From Muribaculaceae bacterium (lineage in GTDB: Bacteria > Bacteroidota > Bacteroidia > Bacteroidales > Muribaculaceae), in assembly GCA_017555085.1 (NCBI GenBank), contig JAFZHD010000037.1:1-37718 (forward strand): a stretch of 37,718 bases of DNA. Direction: 5' to 3'. Shown piece after piece: positions 16,083-28,670 of this stretch. The position numbers and the translations under genes were made by a program. Under the pieces are notes generated by a model, which was not told where the DNA came from, searched no databases, and saw only the letters and a list, made by a program, of their open reading frames with translations. Position 1 is the first letter of the stretch. Each line of letters opens with the position of its first letter.

Positions 16083-16583
16083 ATGCGCAAATTATTTACT
16101 CTTATCGCATTTTTGATGGCATTGTCGGTTGCTGCAGATACCCCCAAGTATCTCACAATCAAAGCCGGAAGTCAATCAAAATCCTATCCAATCAGCAACA
16201 TTCGCAAGATTACATTTGGAAAACAGACAGCTGACGCAGTTGAGGTACACCCTAAAAGTTCAAAAGTTGATACATACTCATATTCGATTTTTGAAAAAGG
16301 AGTTTTTGAAGTAACACCTTCAGAGTCGGGTGTTGAATCGGTGAGTATTGTCAATTCTGATATCACTATTTTGTATAAATCAGATGCAAATCAAGTGGAA
16401 ATATCATCATCACAAGAACTTGTTGCCGTACAAATTTATTCAATAAATGGTCGGTTGATGACCAATATTACGCCAATGTTTAACGAAACATTCGTTTCGC
16501 TTGCCGAGTATGCAGCAGGTGTGTATGTTGTAAAGGCTATGACATCATCTTCTTCGCAAATTCAAAAAGTAGTAAAACGCTAA
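16083..16583 (+). CDS. Small T9SS cargo protein, partner of the DGR-target protein
   Basis: The protein has 166 residues with a signal peptide (about 1-18, ending VAAD). Residues 22-46 (YLTIKAGS..KSYPISNIRKITF) form a short motif common at the N-terminus of Bacteroidetes secreted proteins. The C-terminal half (about 88-166) is a type A T9SS sorting domain with VAVQIYSINGRLM, AAGVYVVKA and a final VVKR. It should cross the outer membrane through the SprA pore encoded in this same window. The next gene starts 12 bases later and its mature N-terminus carries the same motif, so the two were probably built from a shared module and act together. Function is unknown. Confidence 0.82.
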   Translation: MRKLFTLIAFLMALSVAADTPKYLTIKAGSQSKSYPISNIRKITFGKQTADAVEVHPKSSKVDTYSYSIFEKGVFEVTPSESGVESVSIVNSDITILYKSDANQVEISSSQELVAVQIYSINGRLMTNITPMFNETFVSLAEYAAGVYVVKAMTSSSSQIQKVVKR

Positions 16584-16595
16584 CCATATCAGAAA

Positions 16596-18662
16596 ATGAA
16601 AACAATAAAACACATAATCATATCTGTCCTTACACTTGCCATGTCTTTGCCGGTCGTGGCCCAAGAACAGTATTTGCATATATACAAAGGCGGTAGCAGA
16701 GAAAAATCTTATGTTTTATCCTCAATAGATAGTATGCTGATAGATGAAACCGCTAATGGCAGTTTCATGGACTTGTACAACAAAAGCAACAGGCATCGTG
16801 TGGGTAACCTTGCCGACATCAGCGAATTTAAAGTTGGCGGTGCTGTATTGCCAAGTGGCATATACATGGGAGTCTTGGGATTCAATTCTCAACTTTATAG
16901 CAAAGAAATCGGTTCGTTGTCGTCTTCAACAAAATCGGCATACACCTCATTTGTAAACAATTTGACTTCAAGCAACGGCACATTGTTATATTACGGAGTG
17001 GAAAATGCTCTTGATGCACTTAAAAATGCCGAGGTGCCCGAAGATTTGATAAATGTGACATTGGTAACATTTACCGACGGTCTTGACCAAGGCTCGTTCA
17101 TGATGCAGTCAAAATATTATGACACCGATTCATATTTGACGGCATTAAATAACCGTATCAAAAGTGAGAAAGTGCAAAATATCCCCATTAATGCCTATTC
17201 CATTGGCTTGCGAGGAAATGATGTGAGCGATGTTGCGCAGTTTCAGAAAAACTTGCAATATCTTGCGAGCAAGAACAATAACGCAGTAGAAGCTAGTAAC
17301 ATATCTGAAGTGAATGCGAAATTCCAAGAGATTGCAAATCAAGTATATAACGAAAGTTTTACAAGTACAGTCGGTTTGACAATACCCGGTCAGAGCAACG
17401 GGACCAAAATACGTTTCACATTTGATAATGTAAGCAACGCTGCAAACTCGACAATGTATATTGAAGGTACATTCCGATTAAGCGACCGAGCGTTGACCGA
17501 TGTTACCTACCATGGTTTGTCTTGCAGTAGCGGAGCCACTATAATAGGTCAGCAAGATGGCATATTTGTAACATTTAAGTTTGAGGGAGTGAAGAGCTTG
17601 ACATCGCTTTCAATATCTTCAAGTAATATAGACCAATGGAGTTATGTGGCATCATCGGGCAAATGGCAGATAAATTCGGAATTTACTCCGGAAAATAATA
17701 CGACTATGGAAGTTAGTCGAAAAAGTGCGTTGATAATGCTGGTTTTGGACTGCAGTAGTTCGTTGGGAAGCCAATTTAGCACGGCAAAATCAAATGCGAA
17801 TAGCTTTATTTCAACTCTTGCCGGTTATGGCAATGATGAAAAATTTAGCGCAATTGATATTATGACTTATGATAATATCGATATCTTCACCACACTTGAA
17901 AAAGACGAGATGGTGTTTGTCAAAGGCGGCTCATTTTTGATGGGCGCGCAATCGGCAGATGCAAGCGCACCAAATTATGATTCGGAAGCATGGAACGATG
18001 AATCGCCCGTGCATTCTGTAACCTTGAGCGACTATTATATCGGTAAATATGAGGTGACACAACAGTTGTGGGAATATGTTATGAAATATTCAGGGAAAGC
18101 GGCCGACGGCACTTCAATGAGTGCTTATGCAAGTGATGTTTGGTTGGGCACAAATCCCTCGTCAAGTTATGGCGTAGGCAACTATTATCCGGCGTATTAT
18201 GTGAGTTGGGAGGATATAGTAAATATCTTTATTCCACGCTTGAATAAGATAACAGGCAAGACCTTCCGTTTACCTACCGAGGCCGAGTGGGAATATGCCG
18301 CACGCGGAGGTAATAAAAGCAAAGGATATAAATACTCAGGCAGTAATACTATTGATGATGTTGCGTGGTATTCAAGCAATTCATCATCTTCGACCCACCA
18401 AGTAGGCACCAAGGCACCCAATGAATTGGGTATTTATGACATGAGCGGAAATGTATGGGAATGGTGCAGTGACTGGTATAATAGCAGTTACTACACATCA
18501 AGTGCAACTTCCAATCCCACCGGACCTACAAGTGGCTCTAGCCGTGTGGGCCGTGGCGGTAGCTGGGACTTCTACGCTGGCGGCAGTCGTGTTACGCTCC
18601 GCTACTACTTCCCTGGCGTCCGCAACAACGGCATTGGTTTCCGTTTAGTTTGCCTTAAATAG
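16596..18662 (+). CDS. Secreted VWA plus FGE-like/C-type-lectin protein, probable DGR variable protein
   Basis: The protein has 688 residues with a signal peptide at about 1-23 (VVAQ). Residues 25-50 share a motif with the preceding gene. Residues 85-250 look like a VWA domain with metal-site T129 and D161 but no DxSxS. A beta-rich segment follows (about 255-370), then an intact DCSSS (385-389) opening a second, short VWA-like piece. Residues 437-688 have the FGE/SUMF1 fold (FVKGGSFLMG, YEVTQQLWEYV, FRLPTEAEWEYAARGG, YDMSGNVWEW). The cysteine pair of sulfatase-activating enzymes is absent, so enzymatic FGE activity is unlikely. The last ~40 residues have the layout of a DGR variable region, suggesting ligand binding through a hypervariable C-type-lectin face. 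There is no T9SS tag at its own C-terminus. Confidence 0.9.
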   Translation: MKTIKHIIISVLTLAMSLPVVAQEQYLHIYKGGSREKSYVLSSIDSMLIDETANGSFMDLYNKSNRHRVGNLADISEFKVGGAVLPSGIYMGVLGFNSQLYSKEIGSLSSSTKSAYTSFVNNLTSSNGTLLYYGVENALDALKNAEVPEDLINVTLVTFTDGLDQGSFMMQSKYYDTDSYLTALNNRIKSEKVQNIPINAYSIGLRGNDVSDVAQFQKNLQYLASKNNNAVEASNISEVNAKFQEIANQVYNESFTSTVGLTIPGQSNGTKIRFTFDNVSNAANSTMYIEGTFRLSDRALTDVTYHGLSCSSGATIIGQQDGIFVTFKFEGVKSLTSLSISSSNIDQWSYVASSGKWQINSEFTPENNTTMEVSRKSALIMLVLDCSSSLGSQFSTAKSNANSFISTLAGYGNDEKFSAIDIMTYDNIDIFTTLEKDEMVFVKGGSFLMGAQSADASAPNYDSEAWNDESPVHSVTLSDYYIGKYEVTQQLWEYVMKYSGKAADGTSMSAYASDVWLGTNPSSSYGVGNYYPAYYVSWEDIVNIFIPRLNKITGKTFRLPTEAEWEYAARGGNKSKGYKYSGSNTIDDVAWYSSNSSSSTHQVGTKAPNELGIYDMSGNVWEWCSDWYNSSYYTSSATSNPTGPTSGSSRVGRGGSWDFYAGGSRVTLRYYFPGVRNNGIGFRLVCLK
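18540..18659 (+). other. Probable DGR variable region (VR)
   Basis: This segment encodes residues 649-688. Fixed scaffold residues (R650, R653, GGSW 654-657, A661, SRVT 664-667, R669, P673, R676, IGFR 680-683) use mixed third bases. The 15 interspersed codons 652, 658-660, 662, 663, 668, 670-672, 674, 675 and 677-679 are GGC, GAC, TTC, TAC, GGC, GGC, CTC, TAC, TAC, TTC, GGC, GTC, AAC, AAC, GGC. All end in C, as expected if the template has AAC (or RRC) there and only its adenines were mutated. Composition shifts to GC-rich compared with the AT-rich gene body. The non-mutated tail after 18633 would be the homing (IMH) end. Confidence 0.85.
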
Positions 18663-18695
18663 GGCATTCACTTTATTCCTAAGCTAAAAAATATG

Positions 18696-18729
18696 CACAC
18701 CCTCATATCGAATGTGATATGAGGGTGTG
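18696..18729. terminator. Perfect inverted repeat after the DGR-target gene (terminator and/or homing hairpin)
   Basis: A perfect 14-bp stem (18696-18709 and 18716-18729) with a 6-base loop lies 33 bases past the stop codon. The plus-strand T tract is weak, while the other side has an A6 run (18686-18691 region). It may end the operon. Its place just downstream of the VR also resembles the hairpin/cruciform that aids mutagenic homing in the Bordetella phage DGR. Confidence 0.7.
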
Positions 18730-18779
18730 TTGCGTTAATTGCAGAATATTTGTTTCAAAAGGATAGCGCGTTAGCAAGT

Positions 18780-18844
18780 CCTCCTCTGCTTTTTGCAACG
18801 CAAAAAATAGGGGAGGTGGGGCGAAGCCTCGGAGGGGTTGAGAT
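18780..18844. repeat. Probable interspersed intergenic repeat with long hairpin
   Basis: Bases 18780-18814 can fold into a hairpin of about 16 pairs, with G-T pairs and one mismatch, around a TTTTTGC/GCAAAAA core and CTCC/GGGAG ends. A GAAGCCTCGGAGGGG-type block follows. The sequence is GC-skewed and unlike its AT-rich surroundings. I recall similar blocks between genes in gut Bacteroidetes, but only one copy is visible here. Confidence 0.45.
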
Positions 18845-18929
18845 AAAAAGCTGTAACTACGATATTCGATATTTACCCCCTCAGAACTCTCGGACTCGTT
18901 TTTTGTCTTGTTGCAAATTGCAAAGTATA

Positions 18930-18961
18930 ATTGATTTTGTGGACTATATTTATTAACTTTG
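18930..18961 (+). promoter_or_regulatory. Promoter of the methyltransferase-radA operon
   Basis: ATTG (18930-18933), 20 bases, then TAACTTTG (18954-18961), 36 bases before the start codon at 18998. Confidence 0.65.
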
Positions 18962-18997
18962 CTCATAAATAAGTCAGTTGAGAAAGAGTAATCTTTC

Positions 18998-19783
18998 ATG
19001 ACGATAAGAAATATGACTGAACTCACAAATAAACTACGCAAAATGGTCGCATCGCTTGGCACAGCCAAGGGACGCAAGGAACACGGTTGCTTTGTGGCCG
19101 AGGGCACAAAGTGTGTCGTTGACACATGGCCTTTTTTCAGTTGCCGATACTTGTTTGCAACTGCCGAATGGATTGAGCAGAATGCCGCATCGCTCAATGG
19201 CGCACAGCCCATTGAGGCAAAGCGTGCCGATATTCAGCAAATGTCGCAACTCACAACACCGTCAAGTGTGATTGCCGTTTATGAGATACCGCAGTCGGTG
19301 CTTGACGAGGCTGTTGTCAACGAGCAGTTGGTTATCGCTCTCGACCGAGTGCAAGACCCCGGCAACTTGGGCACAATAATGCGTGTGGCCGATTGGTTTG
19401 GCATCTCTCACATAGTGTGCAGCCGCGACACGGTTGATGTGTATAACCCCAAGGTGGTGCAGGCGACAATGGGCGCAATATCGCGTGTAAAAGTGCATTA
19501 TGTCGATTTGCCCGACTTTATAGCCCGCCATCGCGATGTGCCTGTCTATGGCACTTTGCTTGACGGGGATAATATCTATGAAACACCGTTGCAAAATCAA
19601 GGTCTTGTCGTTATGGGCAATGAGGGACAAGGATTGAGCGACGAGGTTAAGGCCATGGTGAGCCACCGATTGCTCATACCGTCATATCCCCCTGAGCGAC
19701 CGACATCAGAGTCGTTGAATGTGGGAATGGCAACGGCAATAACCATTGCCGAGTTTCGCCGTCAGGCTGGTTTGAAAAAATAG
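18998..19783 (+). CDS. TrmH/SpoU-family RNA 2'-O-methyltransferase
   Basis: This SAM-dependent methyltransferase has 261 residues and probably acts on a ribose in rRNA or tRNA. The N-terminal substrate-binding part (about 10-90) contains CFVAEGTKCV. The C-terminal SPOUT knot carries motif 1 DPGNLGTIMRVADWFGI, motif 2 VVMGNEGQGLSDEV and motif 3 IPSYPPERPTSESLNVGMATAI. A second ATG at 19013 could be the true start. I kept the first because the promoter lies well upstream of both. The target nucleotide cannot be told from the sequence. radA begins 10 bases later, so they share a transcript. Confidence 0.9.
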   Translation: MTIRNMTELTNKLRKMVASLGTAKGRKEHGCFVAEGTKCVVDTWPFFSCRYLFATAEWIEQNAASLNGAQPIEAKRADIQQMSQLTTPSSVIAVYEIPQSVLDEAVVNEQLVIALDRVQDPGNLGTIMRVADWFGISHIVCSRDTVDVYNPKVVQATMGAISRVKVHYVDLPDFIARHRDVPVYGTLLDGDNIYETPLQNQGLVVMGNEGQGLSDEVKAMVSHRLLIPSYPPERPTSESLNVGMATAITIAEFRRQAGLKK

Positions 19784-21224: not shown

Positions 21225-24200
21225 TTATCTTGCGAGGTTGAGGTTGAATGTGATACCGTAACTGCTGTTGCTTGTGGGGTATGAACTTGTAGATACGAGT
21301 GGGGTGTTGACTTGGTGGTCAAAGAATGCTGCGATAGTCATTCGTTTGCTCATCACATAACTTGCGGTCATGTTTATAGTGATGCCGCGTGTACCCGATG
21401 TGGCTTGTGCATAGTTGTCTTCAATGCGGCGAATCAATGCCTGACTTTCTTGATATGAGAAGTCGGCGTTAATGGTAAGGTCGTTGCTGATGCCTTGCGA
21501 TTTTTTGAGTTTGAGCACCGAGTTGAAGCCCACAATCTTGTATCCTGCACCGATAGTGAGGCCCTTTGTGGCCGCTTCAACGAGTTGGCCTGCGCCTGAA
21601 TTGAGAGTGAGGGTGCGGCTGTCGCGATATTCGGCATTGAAGTTAAGTTCGTTTTTGAGCGTGAAGTTTACACCGATAAGGGGCGCAAATTTCTCGGTAA
21701 TAGCCACCGATGAAATGTTGTAGGGCGATGACGGCACGGGTTGTCCGGTGAGTTCATCGAGAGTGAAACCGAAGTCGCCGTCGGCCGATATCCAGTTGAG
21801 GAACGATGAATATGAACCAACAGAATAGGTACATTGGTAGGCGTGTTTCAACGAGAATGTTTTGAAAATCTTTTTCATTTTTCCCAAGTTTACAAGACCG
21901 TCATAGGTTACGCGCCAGTTGGGAAGCACATGGGCAAACGAGGGGAACGGGTCAAGATAGATTGATGATGCATCTTGGCCTGTATATGCAGCGATAAATG
22001 CGGGGATAAGCACATCACTGCTTGCTGTGTTGATGCCGCCGACTTCGGGGTCGTAGGGCGCACCTGCAAGGTGGTGGCCTGCCATAAAGCCGTTGTCGGG
22101 ATATCTTGTGCCTCGATATTGTGAGTTGAGGCGGCTTGCAACAACCGGAATGTTGTTGAGGAATGTGTTAAACGCAGTGCTGTTATAACCATTGTCGGCA
22201 CTGCTGCTGCGCAATGCTGTAGCGATGGCAACATGGGTTTTTGTATAACTACCGCTGCGGCTGATGGGCGAGTTGTCATACATAAACTGAATTTGGTTAG
22301 TGCGGTTATCGGTGCGGTTTGATGTTACCTGAATCTTGAAGCCTTTGAAAGGCTCAATATTAAGTTCGACATTGAGTTCGTTGGTCTTTGACCAAATTGC
22401 TGGCGAGGTCTGCGTGTCGTCGCAAATGAGCCAACCGCGTTCTTTGGCACGGTCAATATATGACTCGTCGGTAAAGCCGAAAGCGAAATCAAGACCGGGC
22501 GACATTGGGCCATAGCCTGTTGTTTGGCCAAATGCGTCACCGATTTGAGGCATGAACAATGGCAAAGACATGTTTTGGGTGTTGCGCCAACGCACTGAGC
22601 CGTTGCGAATCAACATCGCAAATCGGGCAGTGTAGTCACCCATTTCTTTCCATATATTCTTGTCTTCGGTGAGGTCTTCGGTAATTATGAATTTGATGTT
22701 TTGGTCGCCGCGAGTGAGCACGGTAATGGTGTTTGCGTCGACGGTTTTGGTCTTGACTGCAAACGGTTTGCCATCGGTGGTTTTGGCTACTACTTTCACC
22801 TTCTTGTTGCGCAGATTGTGCTTGATAGTGATAGTGGTGTCGGGCATGAGTTTGTAGGTGCGCTCATATTTCTTGGCTTTCTGTTTCTTGTTTGGAGTGC
22901 CACGCTTGGCACTTGCAAATTTCTTGTTCACCTCTTTAAGATAGGGCACTTTGTTGTAAAGTGTTTCAAGGTTGAGGCGTCCGTCGATGTTCCATGATGA
23001 TTGGTTCTTGATAGTGTTGCCAAGGTCAACCCCTTCGATTAACGCACCTTTTTCCCAATTATAAGTGGCGTTGTAACTTGCCGATGCGGTCAAGAAGTCA
23101 AGGAACGGTATTTTGTTGAACGGTGCTTTGTATGATGCCACGAACGACTGATTGTAAGACCATGGCGTACCAAAGTTGGTGATGCTGTTCATCACAGTGT
23201 CTTTCCATAACTTGTATTGGTCGGGGAACAGTTGCTTGTTGACTGCGCCCATAGGCTCTTCAATGCGTGCCGATGTATTGGTGTTGAGCGACAAGTTAAG
23301 GCTCTTTGTGAGATTCCATGTGAGTGAGAACTGACGGTCCCATGAAAAGTTTTTGCTAACCGATACGGGCAATTGGAACATTACATCTATCTCGCTGCGT
23401 GTCTGTTGCTCATAGTAGTAGCGCGACATTGTGGTGAGGAATGTAATAGAGTTTGGCAGATAATTAAGTTCCCATTCTTTGAAGAACTTGGCGTTTTTGT
23501 TGTTGCTCTTTATCCAGCCAAACGGTTTCAAGCCTTTGACATAGGGAGAGTAGGCATATTGGAAACTACCACGGTAATCGTTAGTGTTTTCATACTCGGT
23601 GGTGGGGTCCATGTTTTGCTGCTTGTTAAACGAGAAGTTCAATGAGAAGTTTGCAGGGTCCCAAGGCATGGGATTTTTGCTCTGAACATCAAATTTGAGT
23701 CCCGATATGCTGAAATTTTGCACGGTTGAGCGTTCAACGGCATAGTTGCTGATTGAGTCGCGCTCGTGTTTGTCGGTGGCATCGTCGAGGGCATCTTTCA
23801 ACAATACATCTTGGTCGAGAGGATTGTATTTGGGCGATGTTTTCTCTTTTGTAACCGAATAATATACGGGTGCTTTGAGTTTAGCTTTCTCAGGGAGGAA
23901 GCGGCCCAAGTCGGCTTGAACGGCAAAGTTATAGCGTTCATAATCGTCGAGACGACGGTCGTTGAGCGATTGGTCAACGCCACCAAATCCGGCAGTCTCA
24001 ATGTGTGAGCCGAAGTTGAGTGTGGCGATATCCGACATTGAGAGTGTGGCATTGGCTTTGGCGGCCCAACCGCCGCTGTTGTCAAAGTCGGTTACTTTCA
24101 ATTCGTTAATCCAAACAGTACCGTCTTTGACTGTGTTTGAATTGTTGCGTACACCAATCAAGATTACACGAATGTCGCTGAGGCTCGGATTACCTAGCAC

Positions 24201-27200
24201 GGCCATGCGATTTTGTTCGTTGTCGGGGTCGCGGCTTGTGTATAATGTGGCAAAGCCAACCGACGAGTCGGCCATGCGTTTTGCTGCATTGCGTTCTTCT
24301 TTGAGCGCAACGAGTTTTTGCAATTCGAGGTTGAGGAAGTTGCTCTCGGGCCACACAATGTAACGGTCTGATTCAAGATATGTGTTATATTTGCCCGGAG
24401 GGGTAAGGGTCAAAGGAATTTCATATTCATAGTAGTTGTTCTTGACATCAGAACCCAAACGAATGAATATCGACAATTCACCTGAGCGAAGGTTTGTAAC
24501 ATCGTCAATAAGGTCTTCGGCGTGGACCCACATTTGCATGCGTTTGTAGTTGCGCAAGTCGAGCGTTGTGTTGCGATAAACACCGCGGGCATCGCCGGCT
24601 TGTAGGCCAACGAGTTTCATCATCATTGATTGCTCGTTGAGTTGGGTGATTTGTGATTGGCCGGGGTCTACGATTCGTGATACGCCGGGAGGCAATACAT
24701 AGTTAACCGGCTCGCGGGCGGCATTTTCTTCAATGTTGACTACCGACACATCGAGTTGGCCTTCGGCGGGAGCTTCACCGCGGTTATTGAGATTGAAATC
24801 ATAGGTGCGCCATTCGCCACGCACAAGTTCTAGTGTGGCAAAACGCAAGTGAGTAACTTGCTTAAATCCGGTCATATACATGCGCGCAAAGCGAATGGTC
24901 GAGAAGTCGTTGATAGAGCCGACAACCTTTTCATATTCGGCCAAAGGAATTTTGAACTGATACCATTCAACCTCGGTTTTTTGTCCGTCGCGAGTGGGTA
25001 CAATCGAAACCTGTTTGTCGGTAATGAAGTTTTGGCCAACGACAAGGTCCTCAGGACGAATAGAGATGCGATATTGGAAATAACGCTCATATTCGTTGAG
25101 AGTGTTGTCTTGGTTGATATCTTCAACATCAGGAACGCTACGGGCCGATTGATAAAGAGGCTCGTCTGTGTCATCGGGCGAGAGCGAGTTGCCTTCAACA
25201 CCGTTATAGTGTTTGTAGCGTTCGAGAATTGAGAGGCGTTGCTCGTCAAAGTCATATCCGCGGAAGAAGTGGTATTTGTCGCCCGCAGGGTCATTGAATG
25301 GCGAGAATTGGTCGTTTTGCATTCTTTCAATAGCCGAGGGAGAGAGTTTGGCGCGCAAATTATCAAGATAGTTGCGATATGAGCCAAATGTGTACTCGTC
25401 GTCGTTGCTCAATCCGTCCAAGCCGACATCTTGAATGCGGCGCGAACCGGTTGAGTTGTCAAATGCGTATGTAAGCGAGTTTTGTCGTGAAACACGGCCC
25501 CAAACAGTGGTGTCCATATATTGGTTGTTACCGTCAATGGGAAGGCCGTTTTCATAAGACTTCAAACCGTCTTTGAGGATGTCTTCGCTCATTTCGCCAA
25601 AGTTGATGTAAAGGTCTCCACCTTCGTGGTTGGGCACATTTTCATCAAGGAACGGGTTCATGAGCCAGAATTGAACATACTCGATGTTTGACTGCTCAAA
25701 GTTGGTGTTATCCATTTTGCGCATGATACCGCCCCAACGGCGCTCGGGATACAAAAGGTTGCCCTCTTCGTCGATATCGGTTGCATCAAGGTTATAAGGA
25801 CCGCGCTCGGTGGGGTAGAATGACAAGTTAAGCGTTTGAATAGTAGATGACTCGCCATAGTTGAGTTCACGGCCAGGGAAAATTTCTTGTGATGTTACCT
25901 CGCGAACATAGGGGTTTGACAGCTGTTCAAGGTCGCTCTTGATGTAACCGGGTGCGAGGCTTGAATTTTTCTGCGTAAACATGCGGTCGATATAATACCA
26001 TGCAAGCAATGCGCGGTTTTTGCCATATGCCACATCGTTGGTCAATGATGCCTCGGGGAAGCGTGGGTGTGAGCCGTTTTCGTAGGGAGTTGGAGCAAGG
26101 AACCATGAATAGGGTGAGCGCAAGTCAATGCCTGTCTGTGTCGATTCAAAGTCGTCGACATACGAACTGCCTTGGTTTGAGCCCGAACGCTGCTGATTGG
26201 GCACAAGTTGGGCAAACTCGGCCGTGATATTTACCGATGATGGTGCTGTGGCGTTAACTGTGGGGATGTAGTTCAGCAAGTTTGTGAGCCACATAAAATT
26301 GGTCTTATAACCCATGTTAAGACCCCACATTGAGTTGTTGATAACCTCGTCGCCAATGTTAACCTTTTCGGTCAGCGCCTTTTCAGAGAAGTGCATGATG
26401 GTTGCACCGATGTTGAAGTCTTTGTTGAACTGATAGTTAAGGTCAAGACCGAGCAAAGTTTTGCGTTGGGTGCTAAACATTGACTGGTTTTCGAGCGATA
26501 CGCTGATGTTTTGACCCGAGTCAATGATGCTTTGGTTTGTGATGGTTACAATACCCATTGCATAATCGACGGTATAGTCGCTGTTTTCGGTCAAGACAAC
26601 GCCACCAGCAGTCACGACTACCGAGCCTCGTGGCACATTCATTGCATTGAGGCGGATTTGCGAGCCTGATGATGCTTGATATTCCCCTTCGAGAATGAAT
26701 TTGTTTTTGTCGGCAAACTGACGCGCTATGACGAGGGTTGAGTCATAAAGTTCTTGGTAAACATATTGTTTGGCCAACTCGGGGTTGTTGATTTTCTTGG
26801 CAAGATGTTCACCGAACGGTTCAACAACGGGGAAGATGATTTTGCCGTTTGATGACAACACGGTATATCCTTCGATGTAGTCAAAGAATCCGTCGGGGTT
26901 TGACTGCTCGTTTGAGTCGATGCGGTCAAGGTTCATTACTTGGAGCAATGACTGATTATTAAGACCGGGGACGGGCAGATAATTAATGGCCGTACCTGTG
27001 GTGTCGCTCAGATATTTAATGTTGAGCTTGAACTTGTTTTTCTGAATTTGGTATGCGCCGAGAGAGTACACGTTCTTCATCATCAAGTCCCACATAGGCA
27101 ACTTGGGTGCAACGGTTGTGCTCTTCAACATCTTTACATAGAGCGAATTGTCTGTTGTGGTGATGTCGCTTGAAAATTCGCCGACTTGGTACACTTGACC

Positions 27201-28670
27201 GCGGTAGGTATATTCATAGGCAACACCCAACACCTCGTCGGCATTGAGTGCGGTCTTGATTGAAATGTAACCGAGAGTTTCGTTAAGTGTATATTCCGAC
27301 GCTGACAACAATCGTGCGCTTTCAACCTTTTCATAGTCTTTACCACCCTCAATGCCATAGGCAGCAAGAGGAGCAAGAGCCTGTGTCACGGTGTTGATGT
27401 TTCGCGCTGTGGGAAATTCGTTTTTAATGATGTCTAGCAAGTCGTTTGATGCGTTAGCAGGGTTGCTCAATGCGTCGTTAGTGGTCCAAAACGGACTTGC
27501 AAGAACGCGGCTTTCAGCCATGTCCATGAATGCAACGATGTTGCGTGACTCGTTATAATTGCCGCTTTTGTTTGTGACCCACACTTCGATGCGTGTGATG
27601 TTAACGCCCGAAGACACATAGGGGAGTTTAGAGGCAAATTGGTCGTAGTTATCGCGGAAGAAATGACCGAGGAAATAGTGGCGGTTTTGGTCATACTCGT
27701 CACTATTGATGGTGAAGTCGGTGGTTTGAACACCGCCTTTGGTGTTAACTGTTTTTGATTCAGAATTTTGTTGTGAAACAAGGGCCGTTGCGGTGAGTTT
27801 GCCAAATTGTAGTTGGGTTTTCACACCAAACAATGCCGTGCTACCCCTGATGAGTGATGACCCTGTAGTCATGCTCACATTACCGGCTTCAATGTTTTTG
27901 ATAATGTCGTCTTCTTTGCCTTCAAATTGCAGTTTGAGGTTTTTAGAATCAAAATCAAAAGTCGCGTCGGTGTTATATGTCATGTTAAATTTCAACTTGT
28001 CGCCGACCGATGCACCGATAGTGGCTTGAATTTTTTGGTCGAAGTCAAAATAGGTTTTGCGACGAGAGTTGAGCGGAAGGGCGGGGTTGTCGGTTTTGTT
28101 TGACTTTACGCCCATTGAAATTTGTACTGAACCCTGTGTTTTGAGTTGCACACCTCCGGGGCCGAATACTTTTTCCAAAGGTCCGAGAGCAAAGTTAATG
28201 TCAAAGATGTTGAAAGGCTCTTTTGACTTTGCTTCAAACAACTCGGCATTGCGCTCACGGTAGTATTCTTGCATTGATTGTCTCATTTGCCAATCGTTGT
28301 ATTGGCTTGCCGAGAGCATAAAGGGTGTGGCAATGTCGGTGTCGCCCAATCGGGTGCGAATTACATAACAGCCCGTAGCGATGTCATATTCGGCTGATGT
28401 AGTGATGTTTGATGGCGTTTTGAGGTCCATCGGTCCGCCTTCCGACATCAAGTCGGTATAGTTGTCGGGGACAGTCGGCTTGACATCATATTTCATATCC
28501 ACCTCGTTGCTGTTAGAGGGCGGAGGAGTGGTGTTTGATGGCGCAGGGGGAGGAAGTTCCGACTTATAATACTGAGCATGGGCTATGGCAGTAGAAATCA
28601 GAAGTAACATGATGCTACTCCCGATGATTATTGCAAGTTTATTTCTCAGTTTCTTATAAGTTTTCTTCAT
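21225..28670 (-). CDS. sprA: Type IX secretion outer-membrane translocon SprA (Sov)
   Basis: This is the giant pore of the type IX secretion system, a very large outer-membrane beta-barrel through which folded cargo with C-terminal sorting domains leaves the periplasm. The protein has 2481 residues, within the usual 2300-2500 range. It has a signal peptide (about 1-33, ending AHAQ) followed by a Pro-rich segment. The N-terminal SprA region (NIFDINFALGPLEKVFGPGG, then TQGSVQISMGVKSNKTDNP) and long amphipathic-strand repeats typical of SprA follow, and the chain ends on an aromatic/hydrophobic strand (YGITFNLNLAR). It is downstream of ruvA by 56 bases on the same strand, probably one transcript. 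At least two T9SS-tagged cargo genes lie in this window. Confidence 0.97.
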   Translation of the reverse strand: MKKTYKKLRNKLAIIIGSSIMLLLISTAIAHAQYYKSELPPPAPSNTTPPPSNSNEVDMKYDVKPTVPDNYTDLMSEGGPMDLKTPSNITTSAEYDIATGCYVIRTRLGDTDIATPFMLSASQYNDWQMRQSMQEYYRERNAELFEAKSKEPFNIFDINFALGPLEKVFGPGGVQLKTQGSVQISMGVKSNKTDNPALPLNSRRKTYFDFDQKIQATIGASVGDKLKFNMTYNTDATFDFDSKNLKLQFEGKEDDIIKNIEAGNVSMTTGSSLIRGSTALFGVKTQLQFGKLTATALVSQQNSESKTVNTKGGVQTTDFTINSDEYDQNRHYFLGHFFRDNYDQFASKLPYVSSGVNITRIEVWVTNKSGNYNESRNIVAFMDMAESRVLASPFWTTNDALSNPANASNDLLDIIKNEFPTARNINTVTQALAPLAAYGIEGGKDYEKVESARLLSASEYTLNETLGYISIKTALNADEVLGVAYEYTYRGQVYQVGEFSSDITTTDNSLYVKMLKSTTVAPKLPMWDLMMKNVYSLGAYQIQKNKFKLNIKYLSDTTGTAINYLPVPGLNNQSLLQVMNLDRIDSNEQSNPDGFFDYIEGYTVLSSNGKIIFPVVEPFGEHLAKKINNPELAKQYVYQELYDSTLVIARQFADKNKFILEGEYQASSGSQIRLNAMNVPRGSVVVTAGGVVLTENSDYTVDYAMGIVTITNQSIIDSGQNISVSLENQSMFSTQRKTLLGLDLNYQFNKDFNIGATIMHFSEKALTEKVNIGDEVINNSMWGLNMGYKTNFMWLTNLLNYIPTVNATAPSSVNITAEFAQLVPNQQRSGSNQGSSYVDDFESTQTGIDLRSPYSWFLAPTPYENGSHPRFPEASLTNDVAYGKNRALLAWYYIDRMFTQKNSSLAPGYIKSDLEQLSNPYVREVTSQEIFPGRELNYGESSTIQTLNLSFYPTERGPYNLDATDIDEEGNLLYPERRWGGIMRKMDNTNFEQSNIEYVQFWLMNPFLDENVPNHEGGDLYINFGEMSEDILKDGLKSYENGLPIDGNNQYMDTTVWGRVSRQNSLTYAFDNSTGSRRIQDVGLDGLSNDDEYTFGSYRNYLDNLRAKLSPSAIERMQNDQFSPFNDPAGDKYHFFRGYDFDEQRLSILERYKHYNGVEGNSLSPDDTDEPLYQSARSVPDVEDINQDNTLNEYERYFQYRISIRPEDLVVGQNFITDKQVSIVPTRDGQKTEVEWYQFKIPLAEYEKVVGSINDFSTIRFARMYMTGFKQVTHLRFATLELVRGEWRTYDFNLNNRGEAPAEGQLDVSVVNIEENAAREPVNYVLPPGVSRIVDPGQSQITQLNEQSMMMKLVGLQAGDARGVYRNTTLDLRNYKRMQMWVHAEDLIDDVTNLRSGELSIFIRLGSDVKNNYYEYEIPLTLTPPGKYNTYLESDRYIVWPESNFLNLELQKLVALKEERNAAKRMADSSVGFATLYTSRDPDNEQNRMAVLGNPSLSDIRVILIGVRNNSNTVKDGTVWINELKVTDFDNSGGWAAKANATLSMSDIATLNFGSHIETAGFGGVDQSLNDRRLDDYERYNFAVQADLGRFLPEKAKLKAPVYYSVTKEKTSPKYNPLDQDVLLKDALDDATDKHERDSISNYAVERSTVQNFSISGLKFDVQSKNPMPWDPANFSLNFSFNKQQNMDPTTEYENTNDYRGSFQYAYSPYVKGLKPFGWIKSNNKNAKFFKEWELNYLPNSITFLTTMSRYYYEQQTRSEIDVMFQLPVSVSKNFSWDRQFSLTWNLTKSLNLSLNTNTSARIEEPMGAVNKQLFPDQYKLWKDTVMNSITNFGTPWSYNQSFVASYKAPFNKIPFLDFLTASASYNATYNWEKGALIEGVDLGNTIKNQSSWNIDGRLNLETLYNKVPYLKEVNKKFASAKRGTPNKKQKAKKYERTYKLMPDTTITIKHNLRNKKVKVVAKTTDGKPFAVKTKTVDANTITVLTRGDQNIKFIITEDLTEDKNIWKEMGDYTARFAMLIRNGSVRWRNTQNMSLPLFMPQIGDAFGQTTGYGPMSPGLDFAFGFTDESYIDRAKERGWLICDDTQTSPAIWSKTNELNVELNIEPFKGFKIQVTSNRTDNRTNQIQFMYDNSPISRSGSYTKTHVAIATALRSSSADNGYNSTAFNTFLNNIPVVASRLNSQYRGTRYPDNGFMAGHHLAGAPYDPEVGGINTASSDVLIPAFIAAYTGQDASSIYLDPFPSFAHVLPNWRVTYDGLVNLGKMKKIFKTFSLKHAYQCTYSVGSYSSFLNWISADGDFGFTLDELTGQPVPSSPYNISSVAITEKFAPLIGVNFTLKNELNFNAEYRDSRTLTLNSGAGQLVEAATKGLTIGAGYKIVGFNSVLKLKKSQGISNDLTINADFSYQESQALIRRIEDNYAQATSGTRGITINMTASYVMSKRMTIAAFFDHQVNTPLVSTSSYPTSNSSYGITFNLNLAR

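Follow-up and report, generated by a model that had tools for sequence, protein, structure and literature searches.

A probable orphan target of a diversity-generating retroelement in a Muribaculaceae genome

Diversity-generating retroelements (DGRs) rewrite their target genes by an established mechanism: a template is reverse transcribed with errors directed at adenines, after which the 3' end of the target is replaced (Guo et al., PMC3240598). Not every target sits beside its machinery. Isolates of Treponema denticola keep leftover target genes while the reverse transcriptase (RT) and the template are absent (PMC4891356), and cyanobacterial DGRs have remote variable proteins, identified through their resemblance to a template that the same genome carries (PMC7517822). 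Roux et al. 2021 state (PMC8144416) that their approach would not detect DGRs whose variable repeat (VR) is not adjacent to the RT. A full-text search joining DGR and Muribaculaceae returned a single review, with each term mentioned once. The window analyzed here is a stretch of 37,718 nucleotides from a Muribaculaceae bacterium (GenBank assembly GCA_017555085.1, contig JAFZHD010000037.1, forward strand), and it carries a gene that very likely ends in a DGR variable repeat.

The target gene (16596..18662, +) is an ORF of 688 aa with a C-terminal FGE-sulfatase (C-type-lectin-type) domain. The Pfam model PF03781 spans residues 436-685 (E=4e-50), and the closest solved structure by sequence is 2y3c, a T. 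denticola variable protein, with an alignment that covers residues 552-686 and includes the VR (E=7e-35). An FGE-type fold is supported by these two sequence matches. The N-terminus suggests a signal peptide by eye; vWA accessions are precomputed for the N-terminal part of several homologs, and the target protein itself has no Pfam match to a vWA domain. Its partner gene (16083..16583, +; 166 aa), 12 bases upstream, carries a T9SS type A sorting domain that scores 34.8 bits against TIGR04183 (cut-off 23) and 26.7 against the Pfam sorting-domain model, just below the cut-off of 27. A partner homolog lies directly upstream of the target homolog in 6 of 10 other loci, and three of the remaining four are cut by a contig end and begin within the target gene. 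The nearest relatives with a name are three MAGs of Muribaculaceae, recovered from buffalo and cattle guts. The prediction for the target is an exported protein that binds a ligand and is produced along with the T9SS-tagged partner. The window also holds an ORF of 2481 aa (21225-28670, -), which resembles the T9SS protein SprA and as such would fit the tag on the partner gene.

Between the target gene and a SpoU methylase gene lies a gap (18663..18997), the expected place of the accessory gene, RT and template if a cassette were present in cis. Comparison of positions 18501-19100 with the accessory and RT proteins of G001, a relative described below, gave no accessory match and only chance RT matches (best E=0.22). 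The gap contains a perfect 14-bp inverted repeat with a 6-base loop (18696..18729), 33 bases past the stop codon, which may be a terminator or a homing hairpin. Stems of at least 12 within 200 bases of the VR were found in 3 of 15 VR genes (the window gene, L198 and L038) versus 8 of 300 random stretches of the window. In BPP-1-type elements the stems measure 7-10 bp and the loops are 4-base GRNA sequences (PMC3240598). The 14-bp stem is present here, and nothing comparable was seen near the VRs of the intact cassettes in G074 and G409; the hairpin was not drawn on as evidence.

The initial annotation had placed a hypervariable, C-ending codon pattern at 18540-18659, and these positions are indeed the final 40 sense codons of the ORF 16596-18662(+). 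It counted 15 C-ending codons between scaffold residues (GGSW, A, SRVT, R, P, R, IGFR); with that scaffold there are 14, all of which end in C (14/14). The VR, which extends upstream past this scaffold by two variable codons (AGC at 18540 and GGC at 18549), is delimited here as 18540..18644 (+), with variable codons at 18540, 18549, 18567-18575, 18579-18587, 18597, 18603-18611, 18615-18620 and 18624-18632 among the scaffold codons.

The codon bias was measured at variable positions defined independently of the window, namely those at which the intact template of G074, a genome of another genus, encodes Asn. Of the 15 window codons at these positions, 14 end in C; the remaining one is TCT, at 18537. 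The corresponding values are 22% for the 645 codons elsewhere in the gene and 8/22 for the VR scaffold codons. This excess has a binomial p of 8e-9, or about 2e-9 when conditioned on the amino acids, and the 15 most C-rich 40-codon stretches of the gene all start within codons 635-649. The template guessed in the initial annotation (GGSW-NNN-A...N..R-NNN-P.N-R-NNN-IGFR) comes close to the intact templates of the relatives, which translate as RGGSWNNNAQNCRVSNRNNNNPENRNNNLGFR in G074 and as RGGNWNNNA*NCRVSNRNNNNPDNRNNNIGFR in G001. Compared with the G074 template, which is diverged rather than cognate, the window VR differs at 23/33 A positions and 21/81 non-A positions, and 15 of those 21 non-A differences fall on third bases.

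Variation among homologs follows the same positions. Among the matches listed (the best 120 of 1243 homologs of the target protein), the C-termini combine a constant scaffold with variable slots. The four nearest homologs in this set are 89-91% identical to the target overall, with 410-414 of 427-430 N-terminal residues identical (96% over residues 1-430) and 186-194 of 214-217 in the part of the FGE domain that precedes the VR. Within the VR they share 15-18 of 19 scaffold positions with the target versus 0-3 of 17 variable positions. Two of the nearest, P0002 (968 aa) and P0003 (947 aa), have a tandem pair of FGE domains, and each domain has a VR of its own. Several VRs in one protein are not new, since 31 of 271 multi-VR DGRs already have several VRs in one ORF (PMC6642488).

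A sister lineage provides a denser sample of 70 proteins (MKTVKL), after exclusion of P0090, P0102 and P0113 for odd length. All 15 alignment columns with more than 2 bits of entropy fall in the VR, and the maximum before the VR is 1.31 bits. Pairwise identity has a median of 98.9% outside the VR versus 13% at the variable columns. NNC and NNT codons cannot encode M, W, Q, K or E, and these five residues make up 3 of 1042 residues at the variable columns versus 16.5% outside. The 70 sequences are mostly metagenomic, and assembly chimeras are possible among them; the residue bias stands nonetheless, because chimeras would not create it. Exchange of half-VRs between sister variants had been suspected by eye, and no pair passed the test (0 pairs).

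The nucleotide changes were also compared by codon position, between species. Against the ortholog in G004, a genome of the same genus, substitutions at codon positions 1/2/3 number 13/10/3 in the 17 variable codons, 3/2/2 in the 19 VR scaffold codons and 35/22/138 in the 647 codons outside the VR. The shift between the variable codons and the rest has a Fisher p of 7e-9, and four more distant orthologs show it in weaker form (p from 3e-6 to 4e-3). With the NNC codons and the hypervariability of the homologs, this shift bears out the proposed VR as very likely.

Intact cassettes were found in three relatives, G001, G074 and G409, and in the latter two they surround the target's own type of gene. 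In each cassette the VR gene comes first, followed by the accessory gene, the RT and the template. In G074 (another genus, 99% complete), the partner gene and a vWA/FGE-type gene are arranged as in the window and are followed by an accessory gene (Pfam HRDC), an RT and a template; its target homolog is 59% identical to the window protein over 684 aa, and all 16 mismatches between template and VR lie at adenines (16/16). The cassette of G409, the third in cis, likewise has 13/13 mismatches at adenines. In G001 (same genus, 84% complete), the end of a VR gene at the contig edge precedes the accessory gene, RT and template, with 24/24 mismatches at adenines. A second VR on another G001 contig differs from the same template at 22 positions, 20 of them adenines, and therefore distant targets occur in the genus.

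The [IVL]GxxxSQ motif marks DGR RTs. It reads IGNLTSQ in both G001 and G074 and IGSLTSQ in Brt of phage BPP-1, to which the G001 RT is 32% identical over 288 aa. Matches to RVT_1 occur in 6 of 11 same-genus genomes; among these frames, only the one from G001 could be aligned with Brt along most of its length. For the G074 accessory protein, matches occur in 14 of 15 genomes; the gene is whole only in G001, G074 and G409, broken in G004, and present as a partial copy at the edge of a contig in G008. Two further features of the intact elements were recorded. The G001 template (L032 9080-9215, -) contains an in-frame TAG; at this codon its two VRs carry TTG and CTG, and a copy made without mutation would yield a truncated protein. 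The intact G074 cassette (L166 398-2522, 8857-13013) lies about 6 kb beyond a SpoU-RadA gene pair, the same pair that flanks the window gene, but on its opposite side and in reverse orientation; this proximity may be a coincidence or point to a shared hot spot.

The own genome (2.34 Mb, 53 contigs, 99.86% complete) was searched for corresponding machinery. The template copy and DGR-type RT anticipated by the initial annotation were not found in this assembly. It has two RVT_1 matches, neither with [IVL]GxxxSQ, and the G001 DGR RT as query gave no match at 1e-5. That query matches 80 of 397 family genomes at the same threshold; by their identity and length, many of these hits appear to be RTs of other types. 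One VR probe gave 8 matches, namely the VR itself and 7 at E 1.58 or worse, and a further VR probe gave 4, the VR itself plus 3 others at E 3.6. With the template of G001 as probe, 15 matches were obtained and no template copy; the best, 25 bases on G000:C23 (E=1.4e-4), was rejected as a low-complexity stretch within a gene that we read as translation initiation factor IF-2. As a positive control, the same search in G001 recovered its known template at E=3.6e-29. A stand-alone HRDC-type accessory gene was not found in the own genome either, the only similarity being a 32%-identical stretch in a 727-aa frame, presumably RecQ-like.

Several candidates in the own genome were examined and rejected. 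The RT of L001 (C51:100711-101139, 577-aa frame) lacks [IVL]GxxxSQ and resembles Drt4/Drt3b far below the cut-offs; it is possibly a new defence RT. The RT fragment of L002 (70 aa), also without [IVL]GxxxSQ, adjoins a Cas13b gene. That locus (C17:77022-80159) encodes the final 412 aa of a type VI-B Cas13b (NF038190, 187.7 bits, cut-off 150); the RT fragment carries YADD and QGAVLSP, and CRISPR-like repeats follow by eye. The genome's second FGE gene (C29) was dismissed as a second target, its slots holding E, Q, M and W codons. A phage or plasmid origin gained no support from the viral contigs, the phage records or the plasmid search. Viral contigs contain three relatives at 34-41% and no match (0) to the template-like pattern, and none of 15 phage-record matches spans 80% of the target protein. 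The plasmid search with the G001 RT returned 4583 records, all below 60% identity, of which 117 cover 80% of the RT and some are annotated with Avd; no gut Bacteroidales occur among the 10 matches listed of these 4583.

Traces of a cassette persist in near relatives. The ortholog in G004 (72% complete), 87% identical to the target protein, runs past its VR into the start of the accessory gene, which continues in another frame. No RT follows this broken accessory gene, the last 900 bases of the contig being another gene, and RVT_1 gave no match in the 72%-complete genome. The homolog P0005 runs into the same accessory sequence. In G011, a shorter VR-bearing FGE gene occupies the same place, in the order MFS, partner, FGE, SpoU, RadA, and no cassette was found beside it on the 15 kb examined. 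G008 contains two vWA/FGE-type VR genes (L198 and L200), and its contig L253 (G008:C17) begins inside an accessory-gene remnant. No DGR RT was found in the genomes behind L036 and L038 of the sister lineage (0/2), a weak negative, their completeness being unstated; the VR of L038 is that of P0030, one of the 70 sister proteins.

The wider family contains this type of protein in several states. The N-terminal region of the target matches 62 of 397 family genomes, and 42 loci of these matches, including those of G004 and G074, were examined, with C-termini sorted by eye. Eight have VR-like FGE ends, 19 have conserved FGE C-termini, and 15 have other ends or are cut by a contig end. All 19 conserved loci belong to genus g17, which also holds two of the eight VR-like ones (G270 and G172). 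The conserved g17 genes thus show the target-type protein without diversification. An RT is present in 2 of the 42 loci and accessory sequence in 3.

Taken together, the evidence favors an orphan target, a reading to which we assign a probability of about 0.72: past writing of the gene end by an HRDC-type DGR is very likely, and the RT, accessory gene and template, which were not found, have probably been lost. Variable NNC/NNT codons stand in a fixed scaffold, the slots are hypervariable among homologs, the homologs in G074 and G409 are targets of intact DGRs at the same type of gene, and neither RT nor template is detectable in the 53 contigs. Because both were looked for and not found, the gene is classed as an orphan target rather than a complete DGR. 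By analogy with the intact relatives, an AAC-rich template RNA would have been reverse transcribed with errors at adenines, and the cDNA would then have replaced the 3' end of the target gene, turning AAC into NNC in the variable codons while the scaffold codons were kept. The window copy would thus once have been rewritten, and since no machinery was found in its own genome, it is most likely now frozen in its present residues.

The alternatives differ in which part of this account they dispute. That no retroelement was ever involved, with ordinary fast evolution under selection on a ligand-binding face of the FGE fold, is highly improbable. Such a view would accommodate the missing RT and template, as well as the 19 g17 loci, where the same kind of protein has a conserved C-terminus and from which it follows that this gene family can do without a DGR. 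Selection nevertheless leaves unexplained that nearly every variable codon ends in C and that M, W, Q, K and E are almost absent, and the templates of relatives have AAC at the same positions. The initial annotation had named two observations that would speak against a VR, a genome lacking both template and DGR RT and changes spread evenly over codon positions. The own genome did yield neither component, whereas changes among relatives favor positions 1 and 2 of the variable codons.

The remaining alternatives concern the fate of the cassette. The VR may still be live, rewritten in trans by a DGR that the assembly missed, either in a gap, which an assembly in 53 contigs could hide, or in an element carried by part of the population. 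We regard this as unlikely, although the second G001 VR shows that distant targets occur in the genus and the 70 sister proteins are strongly diversified on a near-constant backbone. Yet a genome from that sister lineage (L038) gave no DGR RT, and in the 99.86%-complete own genome RVT_1, the DGR RT, two VR probes, the template probe and the accessory protein gave nothing that fits; nor do viral contigs hold a related template pattern. Somewhat less probable again is that target and partner were acquired alone with the VR already diversified, in a lineage that never had the cassette, an alternative named for T. denticola by Nimkulrat et al. (PMC4891356). The partner-target pair does occur in different neighborhoods, and no cassette remnant lies downstream of the window gene, so loss at this locus is not directly seen and the gene could have arrived alone. 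The VR-bearing FGE gene of G011, likewise next to SpoU-RadA and with no cassette, also counts against the orphan reading. Against this, the accessory-gene start directly after the VR in both the G004 ortholog and P0005 implies that the near lineage held at least part of the cassette.

A broader and doubtful reading is that partner and target form a durable chromosomal receptor module, whose resident binding faces would be re-randomized in trans by wandering DGR cassettes, each lineage keeping one frozen variant between visits. On this view it is the target gene, rather than the retroelement, that would persist as the stable unit. The gene family in any case offers a testable series, with the cassette intact (G074, G409), broken (G004) or not found (window). 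The 70 natural variants of a single protein, with their median identity of 98.9% outside the VR, are a resource for asking what such proteins bind. Here, a codon pattern read by eye exposed probable writing by a retroelement that a survey anchored on RTs would miss.

The locus shares features with each of the described systems. Brt of the Bordetella phage BPP-1 DGR (Brt, TR and VR1 in mtd) is a homolog of the RTs in the relatives' cassettes, which share its [IVL]GxxxSQ motif; BPP-1 diversifies a phage tail-fibre target and has Avd as accessory protein, whereas the target here is a host gene and the relatives carry an HRDC-type accessory gene. As in the cyanobacterial remote variable proteins (PMC7517822), a C-type-lectin-type target lies away from an RT and has its VR near the 3' end of the gene, although the own genome here has no detected template. 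The closest parallel is the T. denticola DGR with TvpA (2y3c), which likewise combines an FGE-domain target, an HRDC accessory gene (here found in relatives) and targets without RT and template. It belongs to another phylum, and the window gene differs from it in its vWA-like N-terminal part and its T9SS-tagged partner gene. Orphan DGR targets are thus already known from T. denticola (PMC4891356), and the window gene adds a probable further member.
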